DNA of 35,913 nt from the NCBI GenBank assembly GCA_030606265.1, contig JAUWGT010000004.1:1-35913 (forward strand), written 5' to 3'. Below the pieces are notes generated by a model. It saw only the letters and a list, made by a program, of their open reading frames with translations. It ran no database searches and was not told where the DNA came from. The translations under genes were made by a program, and so were the position numbers. This DNA is from Candidatus Stahliibacteriota bacterium (GTDB taxonomy: Bacteria > Hydrothermota > Tepidihabitantia > SM23-42). Positions 22,278 through 32,591 of this stretch are shown in pieces; within the stretch, counting starts at the first letter, position 1; every line of letters begins with the position of its first letter.

Positions 22278-25200
22278 ATGAGGAGGCATTTTCGAGGTTA
22301 TAAAAACAGACTTAAGTATCTAGTGCTTTTAACAATTTTGGGTTCAATAGCCTATGCTCAAACAGGTGCCCGATACTTGGTCATAACCCCTGACAATTTC
22401 TATAATACATTACAGCCTCTGGTTGAATGGAAATACAAAAAAGGTATGAAGCCGGCAGTATACAAGCTCTCGCAGGTCGGTTATGATTCAGTCTCGATAA
22501 GGAATTTTATCCTCAATTGCTACGATACATGGGATATTCAACCTGAATTCGTAATTCTTGTCGGTCATCCAGGATACATCCCGATGTGCTATTATCCTTA
22601 TGGCGGGTACAACTATTACACGGATAACTACTATGGTAATATGGACGGCGATATTTACAATGAGATATTGCCGGGCAGGCTTTCAGTACAAGATACTACA
22701 CAGCTAAAAACTATCATTAATAAAGTCTTTGCTTATGAACGTCATCCATTTACAAGCGATTCACTATGGTTTAAGAAAGGCGTTGCAATAGCGAATTGTG
22801 ATGGTGATGATGATTCGATCTATCTTTATTGCATGAGGTATGCGGAAAGTCTGGCAGTAAACAATGGTTTTGCATTGGTAGATACGTTCTGCAATTATAC
22901 AGGACACAACTACACTCATATCCAAAATTCAATTAACCAAGGTCGTATGTTTGTCATGTACCGCGGTAATGCGAGCGTTCATTGGTATAATCCCTTTGAT
23001 CTTAACCCTTATTCATTAGCTAATGGCGATAAGCTACCGATCATACTTTCTACTACGTGCCGGACCGTTTCGCCGAGTTCATCGCCTATCCTTGGCGAAA
23101 ATTTTCTAAGGGTCGGTACGCCGACGAATTTGAGAGGTGCCGTTGCCTTTTATGGCGGTACGCGTAATACTGGCAATGCCGCCCATTTGAGAAATGCGGT
23201 TGCGATGGGTTTCCTCGATGCTATTTTCATCGATAACAAACGCACCTTTGGTGAAGCAGGGGAAGGGGGGAGAAAAAGAGTTTATCAACAGTGGGGTGAT
23301 CTCCGAGAATACAATAATTTCACCTGCCTCGGTGATCCTGAACTCAACCTTTGGACAGATTCACCTTGTTCTCTAGATGTTCAGCACCCTGAATTCGTAC
23401 CTTTCAGTGCATTCAATTTCGTTGTTACGGTTAAGAAAGCAGATGACCAAACATTGATCAGCGATGCATTTGTTTGTGTCGCGGGGAAACTGGATACGAC
23501 TGTCTATTTCCTTGACACAACTGACATCAACGGCGAGGTGAATTTCAACATTGATCCACAAATCCTTAACGATACACTCTACATAACAGTGACTGGCAGA
23601 AACCTCCTGCCTTACGAAGGATCAATGCAGGTAAAGATCCTCAACTATTGTCATATAGTATATTTAAATTCATTTGTTGATGATTCAGCGGCTGGTAATG
23701 ATGATGGTAGGATTAACCCCACTGAGGATATTGAACTGCCAGTCTGGATCAGCAATCTGAGCGAGAGCACCGGCGTTGCTATTACTGGCAAGCTGAGATC
23801 GAACGACAGTTATATTACATTGACTGATACGGTAAAGAACTTTGGTGATGTATTAGGTGGCGACTCTGCTTTTACGGGTTCAGACGGCTTCAATTTCACC
23901 GTCGTTCATTCATGTCCAGATGGTCATCAAATTGATTTTGAATTGCTATGTTCAGATATCAACGACTCAATCTGGATGTCTGAATTTTCAAAGGTCGTTC
24001 TTGCACCGAAATTTATACTGAGTGGAATAACCCTGAGTGGCGGTAATGGCAACAATATTCTGGAGCCAGCTGAGACTCTTGATGTTATTATTTCCTTGCG
24101 CAACCAAGGTGCTGCAGCAGCTGATAGTGTTAGTACAGTACTTCGTTGTGCAGCCCCTGAGGTTTTTATCCTTGATAGCATCGGAACATTTGGTCATATC
24201 GGTAGTGATAGCACGCAGGATAACGACCAGGATCCTTTTGTTATAGCTGCTGATTCTGGTGTTCCAATAGGCACGGTCGTCGACTTTGAAATGGTCGTGT
24301 ACTCGAACTACTGCAATGACACAATACGATTTGAGTTGGTCATTGGACAGAAAAACTATTATCTCTGGAACCCTGATCTATCACCATCATCTGGTGAAAA
24401 TATCCACGCTATTCTGAATAGTACAGGCTATAGTGGTGACTATGGAACTAACCTGCCTTCAGATTTGAATACCTATCAGACATTGCTCGTTTGTCTGGGT
24501 GTTTATTCAATTCGCTATTTGATAACGCAAGGGAGTACTGAGGCGGTGGCAATTACTGATTATTTGAACAACGGCGGCAGGGTTTATCTGGAGGGAAGTT
24601 CTGCGTGGTTTGTCGACCCGCAGTATCACAATGGACACGATTTTGGTCCACTTTTTGGCATCAATGCTACAACCTGGAGCTATGGTGATATGGGTCCAGT
24701 TGTTGGACATCCAAGTACCTTTACTAATAGTATGTATTTTGATTATGGTGGGGAGAATAGGTACATGGATCATATTGACCCAACAGGTAGCGGTTTCTTG
24801 ATCTTGCGCGATAACAACAATAGCTACAACTGCGGCATTGCTAATGATGCTGGTTCGTACCGGACCGTGGGCGTTTCTTTTGAACTGGGTGGACTAATTG
24901 ATGCGTCGCCACCTTCAACACGGGCCGCATTGCTTGATTCAATAATGAATTTTTTTGGGGTTCCATTGCCGGGTGTGTTTGAAAATTCTCAAGAGCGTTT
25001 GGATATTGCACATTTTAGCATTTCACCAAATCCGTTTATGAAGCTAACAGAAATCAGCTTCAGCACCGGGCATGGGGCAAAAGGCATAGAGTTTTTGGGA
25101 ATCTACGATATTTTAGGACGGTTGATTCGTATTTTACCTACCAGTCAGTGTAATCTGAATGAATCTGTGTTTTCTGTGTGCTGGGATGGTTCAGATGAAC

Positions 25201-25289
25201 ATGCTCGTCCTGTGCCAGCAGGGGTATACTTTGTGCGCGTTAAAGCAAAAGATATTGAAAAAACCGAGAAAGTAATAAAACTGAAGTAG
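22278..25289 (+). CDS. Gingipain/C25-like peptidase with C-terminal FlgD-like sorting domain
   Basis: Signal peptide; YLVITPDNFYNTLQPLVEWKYKKGMKPAVYKLS, LVGHPGYIP, LGENFLRVGTPTNLRGAVAFYGGTRNT; C-term FSISPNPFMKLTEISFS...GIYDILGRLIR...VPAGVYFVRVKA. Confidence 0.87.
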   Translation: MRRHFRGYKNRLKYLVLLTILGSIAYAQTGARYLVITPDNFYNTLQPLVEWKYKKGMKPAVYKLSQVGYDSVSIRNFILNCYDTWDIQPEFVILVGHPGYIPMCYYPYGGYNYYTDNYYGNMDGDIYNEILPGRLSVQDTTQLKTIINKVFAYERHPFTSDSLWFKKGVAIANCDGDDDSIYLYCMRYAESLAVNNGFALVDTFCNYTGHNYTHIQNSINQGRMFVMYRGNASVHWYNPFDLNPYSLANGDKLPIILSTTCRTVSPSSSPILGENFLRVGTPTNLRGAVAFYGGTRNTGNAAHLRNAVAMGFLDAIFIDNKRTFGEAGEGGRKRVYQQWGDLREYNNFTCLGDPELNLWTDSPCSLDVQHPEFVPFSAFNFVVTVKKADDQTLISDAFVCVAGKLDTTVYFLDTTDINGEVNFNIDPQILNDTLYITVTGRNLLPYEGSMQVKILNYCHIVYLNSFVDDSAAGNDDGRINPTEDIELPVWISNLSESTGVAITGKLRSNDSYITLTDTVKNFGDVLGGDSAFTGSDGFNFTVVHSCPDGHQIDFELLCSDINDSIWMSEFSKVVLAPKFILSGITLSGGNGNNILEPAETLDVIISLRNQGAAAADSVSTVLRCAAPEVFILDSIGTFGHIGSDSTQDNDQDPFVIAADSGVPIGTVVDFEMVVYSNYCNDTIRFELVIGQKNYYLWNPDLSPSSGENIHAILNSTGYSGDYGTNLPSDLNTYQTLLVCLGVYSIRYLITQGSTEAVAITDYLNNGGRVYLEGSSAWFVDPQYHNGHDFGPLFGINATTWSYGDMGPVVGHPSTFTNSMYFDYGGENRYMDHIDPTGSGFLILRDNNNSYNCGIANDAGSYRTVGVSFELGGLIDASPPSTRAALLDSIMNFFGVPLPGVFENSQERLDIAHFSISPNPFMKLTEISFSTGHGAKGIEFLGIYDILGRLIRILPTSQCNLNESVFSVCWDGSDEHARPVPAGVYFVRVKAKDIEKTEKVIKLK

Positions 25290-27231: not shown

Positions 27232-30200
27232 ATGAATAAAGATACTTCATTTGAAATATTAAGTATGCATGAACCATTTGTCGGACGACAAAAAGAGTTA
27301 AAATGCTTAAGGCATCATTTAGAAAAGGCAATAGACTATAGCGGTCGTTTTATCCTTATTCAGGGTGAGATTGGTGTAGGAAAAACAAGACTTCTCAAGC
27401 AATTTGTTGATAAGATTCAAGAACGAAATTTTCACATTTTGAATGGCAGAGTAATAAAAGATGAGGTAAGACCTTTTTCGCCTTTTATTAAGATGATAGA
27501 GTATTATTTATGTAATTTAGAACATAACCGCGCGTGGCTCGTAAAATTCCTGGAGCCGGAAATCGCTCCCTATTTCATTCATCTCATACCTGAACTCAAG
27601 AATCACTATCCATTGGACATGCCACATCTGGCACATACTGTTGACAACCTGTCATTTGTCTATGTTTTCCAACGTTTTTTTGAAAATCTATCTAAATCCA
27701 AACCTCTTATCCTGATTCTGGATGACATCCAGTGGATGAGTGGAGAATCCATTGAACTACTAAAATACTTTGTTAAAAGGATAATCGACCAGCCTATTTT
27801 ATTTGTTGCAACTACACGTTTGTACAAAGATAATCCGGTATTACAACAAACCATAGATGAGTTTAATGAGATGCGTCTGGTCTTCGATATCAACCTTGTA
27901 AACTTTTCCCAGACTGAGACAGAAAACTTAGTAAATCAGAAGTTTAAAAACGACCTTCCCAATCATTTCGTGCACTGGCTTTTTACAACTACTAAAGGTA
28001 ATCCCTTATTCATTGAGGAAATAATCAAAACTTTCATCCGTCAAAATATTATCCGTTATGATGTTGACAAAAACGAATGGCTGGTTGAAGAGGATTATGA
28101 AGATTTTCCAATACCTGAAACAGTGGAGAGTATAGTCAGTTATCGCCTGGATAATTTAGCTGCGCCTGAATTAAAACTACTGCAGAGTGCAGCAGTAATC
28201 GGTGAAAGATTTAACCTCAAAATACTTGGTAAACTGGTTGGCTTAATGCCAAAAAAACAATTTTTGAGGTCATACAATATATTAATCGCTTCAGGACTGA
28301 TTAAAGATTTTGAAGATACAAAACAATTCTCCCATCCGTTAATTCATGAACTACTGTACCAGAGGATCAAGATAGACAAACGGCGCAAATTACATCGGAA
28401 ACTTGCCAATATTCTAAAGAATATCCAGGCAAACGATGAAGAGATCGCCTTTCATATGACAAAGGATTTGGTTCCAACCGAAGAGACTAAACAACTCGTC
28501 TCTTATCTATTTAAAATTTCCAAGGATTTGCTTAATAATTATAATTACCGTCTTGCCTGGAAATATCTAAGAATAGCACAAAGAATAGCCGATAAAATTT
28601 TGCCATTGAATAAACAAAGGATGAAGATTAAAGCTGAACTCAATCATCTTTCCTGGATATTGGGTAGGGATGTTCTATCATTTGAAGAAGCAGAGCGATT
28701 TGTTACGGAGTTAGTAAATAATGATCTGAGAAAAGAGGCGGCAATTCACTATCGAATGCTCTTTCACGATGCACTGGTTGCTCAAGATTTGAAAATAGCT
28801 GAAAAATATCTGGAAAAAGGAATATCCCTGGTGAAAAAGAATGATGCATTCTACTGGACATTAATAGTTGAACATTGTCTTCTGCAGAGAAGAAAGGGAT
28901 TATTAAAGGAGTCAGAAAAAGAGGCAAAAAGGCTCAGTACAGAAATTCCCCAGGTAAAGGCTCCTGAAGCATTGTACAAGGTATTCACCAATCTTGGATT
29001 AGTTTCATACTTAAAAGGGGACCTTAAAGAGGCACATCAATTTCTTTCTCGAGCTTTGAATATCGCAGAACAATATCATCTCCTTCTTTATATTGGCGAT
29101 GCTTATTCCAATTTAGGGCTTGTTGAAATGTCAATGGGTGAACTGGATTCTGCGCTTATGAAATTTAATGATTCAATAAAAGAGGCAGAGTTACTCCAGC
29201 GCGAACCCATAATTGGAATTGATTTGCTTTATATTGGATATTCTTTTTTACTTAAGGGCGAGTATGAGCGGGCGATTAAAATCTTTGAGCAGGCAGATAA
29301 AAAGGCTAAAAAGACCCATAATCCGAGATTGCAATTAAGTGCTCAGTTGGGCAAGGCAAGAGTATTCCTGGAATTAGGTGATATCGAAAAAGCAGAATCA
29401 ATAGTAAAAGAAATACCTGAACATAAAATGGAGAAAGGAGCCTACTGCGAGCTGCAGCTCATCAAAAGTTTAATTTATCTAAAGAAAGGTGAGCTGAATC
29501 TTGCTGAGAAATTTGCAAATAAAGCATTGAAATTTGCGAAAAAATTGAATCTCGAATTGCGTTCAGCACGGGCTCTGGGTATAAAGGCATTGGTCCTTTT
29601 ACATAGACAAGAACGAAAGAAAGCATTGAACTATTTGGAAAAAGCAAAAACCATGCTTTTATCAATAGGAGCAATTCCTCTTATTAGTGATATACTGGTT
29701 AACTTTGGACTTGCAATGGGTGGTGCTCAAGGAGAATCCCTGCTAATACAAGGATTAAACATGCTATTTGATATGCATGCTCATGCAAAGATTACTGCTC
29801 TTTGTAAAGTCATGAAGAAAAAGGGGTTTAATAGTGCCCTTAAATTTGTCCGTGAAAGAATACATGAAGTTGAGACAGATAAGATTGATGTATTCACTTT
29901 TGGTGGTCTATCAGTAAAGAAACATGGTGAGTTGAATGTGGTTTCCAAAAAAGAATGGCAATCCAGAAAGGCGCAGGAATTATTGGGTTTGATTCTTGTG
30001 CAGTCTGGTTCTGGCGGCGTGACCAGAGAAAAATTAACTTCATATCTCTGGCCAGAGACAACCAGAAAAAAATCACAGGCAAATTTCCGGGTTGCTTTGA
30101 CTCATCTTAATAATGTTCTGGGCAATAAAGTTATCCTTCAGAAAGGTACCTTTCTTACGTTCAACAAGGAACTTATTCAAGCAGATTTTTGGATATTTGA

Positions 30201-30627
30201 CTCGCTTGTTAAAGAGTGGCAAAACCTTAAGCAATGTGGCAAACTTCACCCAGCAGAAGATAAAGCGCGCAAGGCGGTTGCTCTATATAAGGGTATTTTC
30301 CTTTCTGAATTCTATAATCAACCCATACTAAATAAGCAGCGTGTATTGGAAAGTAATGTAAGGGACATCTTGTTCTGGTTAGCAACAAGATGTATGGAAC
30401 GGATTGAATGGCAAGAAGCAGTCTTGTTTGCGCAAAGACTTCTAACCTTTGATTTAAGTGACGAACGGGCATGCAAAATTATCATGGAGGGTTTGTATAA
30501 CCAGGGCGATCGGGTAGGTGCGATAAGGCAATTTGAACGTTTGAACAAAAGCCTTAAACAAGAATTAGATACCACACCGAGCCCTGAAACAATTAAACTC
30601 TATAAAAAAATCACTGGCGCAGGTTAA
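27232..30627 (+). CDS. AAA ATPase - TPR - SARP/BTAD transcriptional regulator (DNA-binding domain C-terminal)
   Basis: GEIGVGKTRLLKQF Walker A; LILILDDIQWMS Walker B; TPRs; C-term VFTFGGLSVKKHGE...SRKAQELLGLILVQ...REKLTSYLWPE..KSQANFRVALTHLNNVLG and BTAD. Confidence 0.93.
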   Translation: MNKDTSFEILSMHEPFVGRQKELKCLRHHLEKAIDYSGRFILIQGEIGVGKTRLLKQFVDKIQERNFHILNGRVIKDEVRPFSPFIKMIEYYLCNLEHNRAWLVKFLEPEIAPYFIHLIPELKNHYPLDMPHLAHTVDNLSFVYVFQRFFENLSKSKPLILILDDIQWMSGESIELLKYFVKRIIDQPILFVATTRLYKDNPVLQQTIDEFNEMRLVFDINLVNFSQTETENLVNQKFKNDLPNHFVHWLFTTTKGNPLFIEEIIKTFIRQNIIRYDVDKNEWLVEEDYEDFPIPETVESIVSYRLDNLAAPELKLLQSAAVIGERFNLKILGKLVGLMPKKQFLRSYNILIASGLIKDFEDTKQFSHPLIHELLYQRIKIDKRRKLHRKLANILKNIQANDEEIAFHMTKDLVPTEETKQLVSYLFKISKDLLNNYNYRLAWKYLRIAQRIADKILPLNKQRMKIKAELNHLSWILGRDVLSFEEAERFVTELVNNDLRKEAAIHYRMLFHDALVAQDLKIAEKYLEKGISLVKKNDAFYWTLIVEHCLLQRRKGLLKESEKEAKRLSTEIPQVKAPEALYKVFTNLGLVSYLKGDLKEAHQFLSRALNIAEQYHLLLYIGDAYSNLGLVEMSMGELDSALMKFNDSIKEAELLQREPIIGIDLLYIGYSFLLKGEYERAIKIFEQADKKAKKTHNPRLQLSAQLGKARVFLELGDIEKAESIVKEIPEHKMEKGAYCELQLIKSLIYLKKGELNLAEKFANKALKFAKKLNLELRSARALGIKALVLLHRQERKKALNYLEKAKTMLLSIGAIPLISDILVNFGLAMGGAQGESLLIQGLNMLFDMHAHAKITALCKVMKKKGFNSALKFVRERIHEVETDKIDVFTFGGLSVKKHGELNVVSKKEWQSRKAQELLGLILVQSGSGGVTREKLTSYLWPETTRKKSQANFRVALTHLNNVLGNKVILQKGTFLTFNKELIQADFWIFDSLVKEWQNLKQCGKLHPAEDKARKAVALYKGIFLSEFYNQPILNKQRVLESNVRDILFWLATRCMERIEWQEAVLFAQRLLTFDLSDERACKIIMEGLYNQGDRVGAIRQFERLNKSLKQELDTTPSPETIKLYKKITGAG

Positions 30628-30729
30628 CTGCGCATAAGAGAGCTCTAAAAGACTGTTTTCGAGTTCTCTCCATAACTACAATATCTATCCCCTCTTTTCA
30701 TAGCTTAATCTCCTTTTTTCCGTATTTTC

Positions 30730-30760
30730 TTAACGTTTTTTTAACGCTTGCCATTATAAT
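30730..30760 (+). promoter_or_regulatory. Candidate SARP-type operator/promoter: two TTAACG repeats 11 bp apart, 8 bp upstream of TATAAT
   Basis: TTAACG 30730-30735 and 30741-30746; TATAAT 30755-30760; no -35 consensus. Confidence 0.55.
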
Positions 30761-30766
30761 TATGTG

Positions 30767-31021
30767 ATGCAGAATACAAACAAGAAAATCTGTTCTCAAT
30801 GCAACTATCTGGGCAAAGAAACAGACAATTCCTGCCCATATTGTGGTATAAGGTTAATCTCAGTATGCCCAAGTTGTAGAGCACCAATACGGGTTGCATT
30901 TGCTGAATACTGTTATTCATGCGGAATTCGGTTTAAGGATGTGGTAGAGAAAAAAGCATCAAACAGAAAGGAGGCGATGAAAAAAGACAAAGAGACTACG
31001 AGACCCGGTGACAAATCATGA
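30767..31021 (+). CDS. Small double zinc-ribbon protein
   Basis: CSQCNYLG..CPYCG..CPSCRAP..CYSCGIRF; ATG 30767 (track start GTG 30764). Confidence 0.8.
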   Translation: MQNTNKKICSQCNYLGKETDNSCPYCGIRLISVCPSCRAPIRVAFAEYCYSCGIRFKDVVEKKASNRKEAMKKDKETTRPGDKS

Positions 31022-31140
31022 TATCGTATTCGTGAATCGTAATTCGTGCTCGTATAATGAGTTAAACGATATTAACGAATATGAAAGATATGGGGTTAAT
31101 CCCGGGTCACAGGGAGAAAAATAAACACAAAAAAAGGAGG
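31010..31140 (+). repeat. Leader/promoter repeat, copy A
   Basis: gacaaatcatgatatcgtattcgtgaatcgtaattcgtgctcgTATAATgagttaaacgatattaacgaat... near-identical to copy B. Confidence 0.9.
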
Positions 31141-31145
31141 ATAAA

Positions 31146-32591
31146 ATGAATAAGTGTTTAATAATCCTATTATTGACAATATTTGTTATCCCAAAGATAG
31201 TACTTGCTGAAGACCCGCCCATAGAAGTCTGGGTCCGAACCTTGGGATTACTCGGTGATGATTGGGGAGAGGATATTACAGTGGACCCAGCAGGTTATGT
31301 CTATGTGACTGGTAATACCTATAATCCCTATGGTGTACCAAGTTATAATTGGCTTACTGTCAAATACGATGCGGACGGCACTCCGATATGGGGGGAAATC
31401 TATGACTCAGGGTATGGTGATGATATAGCCACAGCAGTTGTAGTGGACAACGCTGGTAATGTTTATGTAGTCGGTTGTAGCCCGGATAATACAATTCGTG
31501 ACTGGCGCTACATAAAGTACGATGCAGACGGTAATCTTCTATGGAATAAGATCGGTGATTGGGGGGCAAATGTGGACAAGGTCTGCAATGATATTGTGGT
31601 GGACACAGTGGGAGGATATCTGTATATGACCGGGGAATTTATAGCTCCAGATGGCTCATGGGACTATCTCACTGCCCAATGCGACCTGGACGGCAATTAT
31701 ATCCGCGATAGATCCTGGGGTAGTGCAATTTATAACAGCGGACGGGCTATTGCAATAGACCCAGCGGGGTATATTTATGTGACCGGTGTCAACGGGTCTG
31801 CAGACTTATTCTGGGCAACTCTTAAATACGATATGGACTTGAACTTCCAGTGGTCAAAAGTCTACAACTCCTCAGGAGCAGATGACCATATACCTGCAGG
31901 TGGTACAATAACGGTGGATCACGCGGGGTGTTTTATTGTCGTTGGTTGGGTGGAGAATGCAAGCACTGATTGGCAGATCGTCAAGTATCTCCCAGATGGC
32001 ACTTTTATATGGAATAAAATTATTGATACAGGCAATAATGATGAAGGCGCCTGGGGTGTTGTGGTGGACTCCGCAGATTACATCTATGTAAACGGTGATT
32101 TTGCTGCCGGCACTACAGGTTGGGATTGTCGAACCATCAAATTTGACGTGAATAGCAATATCCAGTGGACCGTGACCTATGATGGAGGCTACGGCAATGA
32201 TGCCGGTCGCGGTATAGCAATTGATGATTCGGGATTCGTATATGTAGTCGGCCATTCTTATAGAACAGTAGATCACGACTTTTTGACAATAAAATACGAA
32301 CAGCAGACAGGAATTGAAGAGCAGTCATCAGGCGGTTATTTTTCCCTTCTCAGTCTTGAGGTAGTTAATAACCCTACATCTACTCCGACACTCAGTTACA
32401 CGCTTCCTGCTGGAATAAAGGCTAGTTTGAGTTTCTACTCTGCCGATGGGAGAAGAATCGAGGAATTCTCACTTAACTCATCTCAGTCCACCTTTACCTG
32501 GGATGCGAGTGAGTTACCTTGCGGTGTGTATTTTGCGCGATTATGGTTGGGTAATCAATCAATATCTGCGAAAATTTGTTTGACAAGGTGA
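31146..32591 (+). CDS. Secreted SBBP-type beta-propeller protein with C-terminal sorting-like domain
   Basis: Signal peptide ending VLA|ED; repeated WxxxKYDADGxxxW...GNVYVVG motifs; C-term SLEVVNNPTSTPTLSYTLPA...ELPCGVYFARL. Confidence 0.85.
   Translation: MNKCLIILLLTIFVIPKIVLAEDPPIEVWVRTLGLLGDDWGEDITVDPAGYVYVTGNTYNPYGVPSYNWLTVKYDADGTPIWGEIYDSGYGDDIATAVVVDNAGNVYVVGCSPDNTIRDWRYIKYDADGNLLWNKIGDWGANVDKVCNDIVVDTVGGYLYMTGEFIAPDGSWDYLTAQCDLDGNYIRDRSWGSAIYNSGRAIAIDPAGYIYVTGVNGSADLFWATLKYDMDLNFQWSKVYNSSGADDHIPAGGTITVDHAGCFIVVGWVENASTDWQIVKYLPDGTFIWNKIIDTGNNDEGAWGVVVDSADYIYVNGDFAAGTTGWDCRTIKFDVNSNIQWTVTYDGGYGNDAGRGIAIDDSGFVYVVGHSYRTVDHDFLTIKYEQQTGIEEQSSGGYFSLLSLEVVNNPTSTPTLSYTLPAGIKASLSFYSADGRRIEEFSLNSSQSTFTWDASELPCGVYFARLWLGNQSISAKICLTR

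Follow-up and report, generated by a model that had tools for sequence, protein, structure and literature searches.

Does the short direct repeat that separates a large regulator gene from a small zinc-ribbon gene serve as the operator of that regulator, or is it an accident of the T-rich DNA in which it lies? The stretch analysed here (35,913 nucleotides from a Candidatus Stahliibacteriota bacterium, host phylum WOR-3; hereafter the window) carries the features presented in Table 1. Read directly, TCTTAACGTTT (30728-30738) and TTTTAACGCTT (30739-30749) are identical at nine of 11 positions at an offset of 11 bp, and the full arrangement is TTAACG-N5-TTAACG-N8-TATAAT (30730-30760), situated 3 nt ahead of the double-zinc-ribbon gene. 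An earlier note on this DNA had claimed both the alignment of the two 11-mers and the 8-bp distance between the second TTAACG and TATAAT, and the sequence and its coordinates agree with it on both points. Exact 6-mer pairs at offset 11 with TATAAT (0-1 mismatch) 8 bp beyond were found only here in the window, on both strands, and a pattern search returned a single occurrence of TTAACG-N5-TTAACG in the 2.28-Mb genome. The claimed absence of a -35 hexamer also holds: at spacings of 15-18 bp only 0-1 of six positions match TTGACA, and the best -35-like match is the upstream half-site itself (four of six positions, at 19 bp). Standard -35/-10 scans miss this promoter. In the published rule for SARP-controlled promoters, direct repeats lie 11 or 22 bp apart, with 8 bp between the 3' repeat and the -10 box (PMC10936776), and the comparison with this Streptomyces geometry made in the note proved to be apt.

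Table 1 Features of the regulator and zinc-ribbon locus in the window
Feature	Coordinates	Strand	Basis
Regulator gene, 1131 aa: AAA_16 ATPase - TPR - C-terminal OmpR-like winged helix + BTAD	27232..30627	+	Pfam; alignment-based model (winged helix + BTAD)
RNA hairpin just past the regulator stop codon	30637..30669	+	-13.7 kcal/mol, z -2.8
Upstream SARP half-site TTAACG (predicted)	30730..30735	+	direct read; kept in orthologous promoters
Downstream SARP half-site TTAACG (predicted), offset 11 bp	30741..30746	+	direct read; conserved
-10 box TATAAT, 8 bp past the downstream half-site	30755..30760	+	direct read; same position in relatives
Double zinc-ribbon protein gene, 84-85 aa, 8 Cys; start GTG 30764 or ATG 30767	30764..31021	+	Pfam DZR 3.8e-07
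SBBP beta-propeller protein gene with T9SS type A sorting domain	31146..32591	+	Pfam SBBP 3.1e-18; TIGR04183 25.2 bits, cut-off 23

We propose, with a probability of about 0.86, that the regulator from the gene directly upstream uses the repeat as its operator and would activate a leaderless zinc-ribbon gene through it; this large protein very probably docks on the tandem repeat. In the published mechanism, two SARP protomers lie side by side on the DNA, and sigma region 4 rests on the protomers rather than on -35 DNA (PMC10936776). By analogy with the AfsR structure, from which we infer binding, recruitment of sigma and RNA polymerase, activation and control by the ATPase, two protomers of the C-terminal SARP domain would bind the TTAACG pair next to each other, on the same DNA face, substitute for the -35 element and recruit RNA polymerase to TATAAT. 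A leaderless mRNA would thereby be switched on at the zinc-ribbon gene, probably running into the gene for the T9SS-sorted beta-propeller protein, with the AAA-TPR part presumably acting as the signal-sensing switch. This mechanism accords with the site, with the fold and with the lack of a -35 element.

The first element of this proposal is the protein. The domains that the earlier note had assigned to the genes on either side of the repeat were recovered by Pfam: AAA_16 (7e-22), TPR and BTAD (3.2e-18; PF03704, 66.9 bits against a cut-off of 22.1) upstream, and DZR downstream. The SARP domain occupies about residues 880-1131, and within it an OmpR-like winged helix directly precedes BTAD. Modelled from a 13-sequence alignment, residues 879-1131 (the last 253) adopt the overall SARP fold at a mean pLDDT of 93, against only 48 for a single-sequence fold. 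The model matches AfsR in its complexes with RNA polymerase and the afsS promoter (8k60 and 8hvr) at Z 20-21, the top solved match being 8k60_J (Z 21.1 over 242 residues), and EmbR at Z 18.5, all far above other structures, and the profile match of the regulator to AfsR reaches 1.6e-25. With the winged helix alone, phmmer gave no convincing match, whereas profiles and folds succeeded, and a contig scan with the single regulator protein found nothing, whereas the alignment as query gave matches. By its domains, its fold and its operator geometry, the regulator is a SARP. It is not AfsR proper, since its domain order is reversed (AAA - TPR - SARP) and the AfsR model NCBIfam NF053617 is missed widely (28.7 bits against a cut-off of 1430). 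Moreover, AfsR D71 aligns with Ser in the regulator, and the residues T88 and R92, which contact bases in AfsR (PMC10936776), align with Val and His, so the details of the contact with RNA polymerase may differ from those in AfsR.

Is the arrangement maintained outside this genome? The pattern TTAAC[GA]-N5-TTAAC[GA]-N8/9 followed by a TATAAT-like box is kept before zinc-ribbon orthologues in five WOR-3 relatives (G001, G011, where it occurs twice, G013, G023 and G096) and in three records of Fermentibacteria, another candidate phylum, in which the repeat reads TTTAACACTTTTTTAACG and TTAACATTTTTTTAACA. The intergenic DNA flanking the conserved repeat differs among the relatives. The two neighbouring targets in G011 both retain the repeat in front, although the regulator gene there is oriented convergently to them; the repeat thus stays with the targets and does not belong to the 3' end of the regulator gene. 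One of the TTAACG-driven genes of that genome (L066, 1602-2312) encodes a second zinc-ribbon-like protein of 236 aa with most cysteines lost, which may be a decaying or repurposed duplicate. When TTAACGNNNNTTTAACG was searched for in 150 genomes, sites with a T-rich spacer were located solely near BTAD/zinc-ribbon loci, and the remaining matches were no commoner than those of a reversed control. There are one or two TTAACG-class sites per genome, at the locus, and the second site of G023 is an exact duplicate located where a contig ends. With its sites restricted in this way, the TTAACG regulator looks local.

Related BTAD regulators of these genomes likewise have small zinc-ribbon genes or surface-protein genes nearby. 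Do they possess comparable sites? PF03704 was detected at 73 places in 26 of the 61 genomes, and the first 350 bp past each of 61 usable BTAD genes were surveyed. Exact 6-mer repeats at offset 11 were found in 42 of these 61 regions (5.1 expected), a count that includes orthologues and hence non-independent regions, so that the 33 clusters described below are the fairer unit. Every other offset from 7 to 30 was represented in 1-12 regions, and the maximum of 12 falls at offset 22, as triple repeats, which are present downstream of some paralogues, would give. An offset-11 repeat followed 5-11 bp further by a TATAAT-like box was detected in 25 regions (0.4 expected), whereas among 2224 control segments from the same loci the repeat occurred in 8.3% and the repeat with a -10 box in 0.9%. 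About a third of the regions have no clear repeat, in some cases because the next gene is on the opposite strand, another BTAD gene follows or the contig ends.

The half-sites themselves differ among the paralogues: TTAACG, GTAATG, TCTAAT, TAATAG (offset 12), TTTAGG, TTGACA, GTGAAG (offset 12), GGTAAG, GATAAC (offset 12), GTTATG, GTAACA, TTCACG, TTCACA/ATCACA, TTCACC and TGTGAG. Several classes are therefore found at offset 12; the loci L074, L075, L077, L128, L102 and L140 depart from the Streptomyces rule in this way. Grouped at 60% identity, the regulators form 33 clusters, none of which contains more than one half-site type. The recognition helices vary as well, for example, NFRVALTHLN in the TTAACG class, SLRKALQHIR in the TTCACA class, NNFHFTLSTLR in the TCTAAT class and NFRTTAYRMR in the GTTATG class, and the positions of AfsR T88 and R92 fall within this helix, where the residues vary between classes. 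Across 33 representatives, the similarity of the helices predicts the similarity of the half-sites even when the remainder of the domain is accounted for (partial Mantel r 0.36, p 0.0002), with half-site registers set by hand and shared ancestry only partly removed; the correlation is partly phylogenetic because the regulator and the operator are both inherited.

Another important question is whether the site could have a different origin or a different user. The intergenic region is indeed T-rich (57 of 136 bases), and TTAACG resembles TTGACA at four of six positions, so that two other origins have to be weighed: chance assembly from T-rich DNA, or duplication of a -35 element. However, the exact configuration arose in only 10 of 200,000 first-order Markov shuffles of the 136-bp region, which makes composition, the refutation foreseen in the earlier note, an insufficient explanation; the distances of the two copies from the -10 box (8 and 19 bp) are not working -35 spacings, and the half-sites of other classes, such as TAATAG and TTTAGG, are unlike TTGACA. 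Together with the conservation in relatives, which had been named in advance as a check, these statistics refute both.

Direct repeats of 11 bp that stand in for a -35 element are also bound by PhoB-like proteins, which belong to the same winged-helix superfamily and have the same repeat period. The winged-helix profile A4 weakly matches PhoB/OmpR structures, and the box could belong to a different response regulator of the OmpR/PhoB type. We regard this as very improbable, given that the half-site varies with the adjacent BTAD paralogue and its recognition helix, that the site and the BTAD gene co-occur in the relatives and in Fermentibacteria, and that the genome contains the TTAACG repeat only once. 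It is also unlikely that the neighbouring SARP protein represses from this site, or binds it constitutively without control by a ligand: a consensus -10 box without a -35 element at the usual spacing predicts dependence on an activator, and the placement of the repeat equals the activating position of AfsR (PMC10936776). Activation by the neighbouring regulator is the reading that we retain.

What would be activated? In the window, the zinc-ribbon start codon is only 3-6 nt past the -10 box, and all 18 zinc-ribbon genes examined that are linked to BTAD regulators (that of the window and those of 17 homologous loci) begin 3-9 nt past it. This spacing leaves no room for a ribosome-binding site, so the mRNA is predicted to be leaderless, and its constancy in 18 genes is independent support for the -10 box being real. 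The propeller gene, which has its own Shine-Dalgarno sequence (AGGAGG) and follows the zinc-ribbon gene in the same order in G001 and G096, is probably the second gene of the transcription unit. Elsewhere in the window (22278-25289), a protein related to the T9SS sortase PorU and C25 peptidases is encoded, with a sorting tail of its own.

The TTCACA class is distributed more widely. A scan of 26 genomes for TTCACA-N4-TTTCACA yielded ~ 75 sites compared with one for the reversed pattern; among the genomes sampled, they are restricted to the family of the host and a neighbouring order, and none was found in the more distant classes sampled. The sites are dispersed (G000: C17, C43, C62, C66 and C171; 21 sites in G008; and other family members), and a TATAAT-like box follows at exactly 9 bp in 44 of 62 distinct sites and at 8 bp in six. 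Most of the genes downstream encode a hydrophobic signal-like N-terminal segment, and they include those for T9SS-tailed proteins, a C25 peptidase and a TonB receptor; the motif appears to mark promoters at scattered positions, chiefly those of genes for exported proteins. Unlike the zinc-ribbon genes, most targets of this class have a Shine-Dalgarno sequence. The operator also precedes the TTCACA-class regulator gene itself at L245 (G000:C62) and L254 (G001:C355), which suggests that this regulator is likely autoregulated in G000 and G001.

The closest known counterpart is AfsR-afsS of Streptomyces coelicolor, in which a large SARP regulator activates a small-protein gene via the afs box. Both systems combine a SARP domain with a nucleotide-binding domain and TPRs, a small-protein target and two 11-bp direct repeats 8 bp from a -10 box that has no good -35 element, and the domain folds agree at Z 21. 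They differ in that the SARP domain is C-terminal here and N-terminal in AfsR (SARP - nucleotide-binding - TPR), the ATPase is AAA_16 by Pfam, the half-site is TTAACG rather than CGTT(T/C)ATCG, and the small protein is a double zinc ribbon with a predicted leaderless mRNA in a WOR-3 host. The small SARPs ActII-ORF4, DnrI and RedD, with heptameric repeats at 11 bp, share the operator geometry including triple repeats; however, the regulator here is fused to AAA-TPR, and the targets are zinc-ribbon and surface or secreted protein genes instead of antibiotic clusters. EmbR of Mycobacterium tuberculosis has the same winged helix and BTAD fold but carries an FHA domain and has different targets, while PhoB/OmpR response regulators share the winged helix and the tandem binding, predicted here, to 11-bp repeats replacing the -35 element but have a receiver domain where BTAD and AAA-TPR are found in the present protein.

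SARP promoter architecture has so far been worked out almost wholly in Streptomyces and its relatives. New here are promoters of SARP geometry outside Actinobacteria, the reversed domain order and the co-varying operators; the open-access literature yielded no description of SARP-type operators outside Actinobacteria, which is weak evidence of absence because most subscription papers fell outside the search, and no mention of SARP regulators or promoters was found in the WOR-3 literature examined. At about even odds, WOR-3 and some Fermentibacteria harbor a radiated SARP family whose paralogues have each evolved a separate half-site and mostly act on an adjacent gene, forming natural matched pairs; the TTCACA branch would have expanded to control exported proteins globally, and the leaderless zinc ribbon would be the partner of the AAA branch, as AfsS is to AfsR. 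If the operator reading is correct, the 11-bp/8-bp architecture is much older or wider-spread than antibiotic regulation, ~ 33 divergent regulator-operator pairs become usable for reading the recognition code of the SARP winged helix, and genes under SARP control, largely exported with T9SS-type tails, can be predicted in an essentially uncultured phylum.

Several minor observations concern the regulator gene and its surroundings. Upstream of it, a single TTAACA 7 bp before TATAAT, without a second copy and conserved in G001 only, was not taken as a sign of autoregulation. The hairpin past its stop codon is kept in the same-genus G001 (z -4.1), is followed by no strong T tract and possibly represents the 3' end of the regulator transcript. 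Between the zinc-ribbon and propeller genes, repeated TTCGTG/TCGTAATTCGTG motifs (31028-31058) precede a second TATAAT and may be an internal promoter or a dispersed repeat. The regulator of G096 (L064 / L168; contig 31, JAGLZA010000126.1), a genome of another family than that of the window, is 80% identical to the window's regulator, compared with 71% for the same-genus copy, pointing to horizontal transfer or a misbinned contig.
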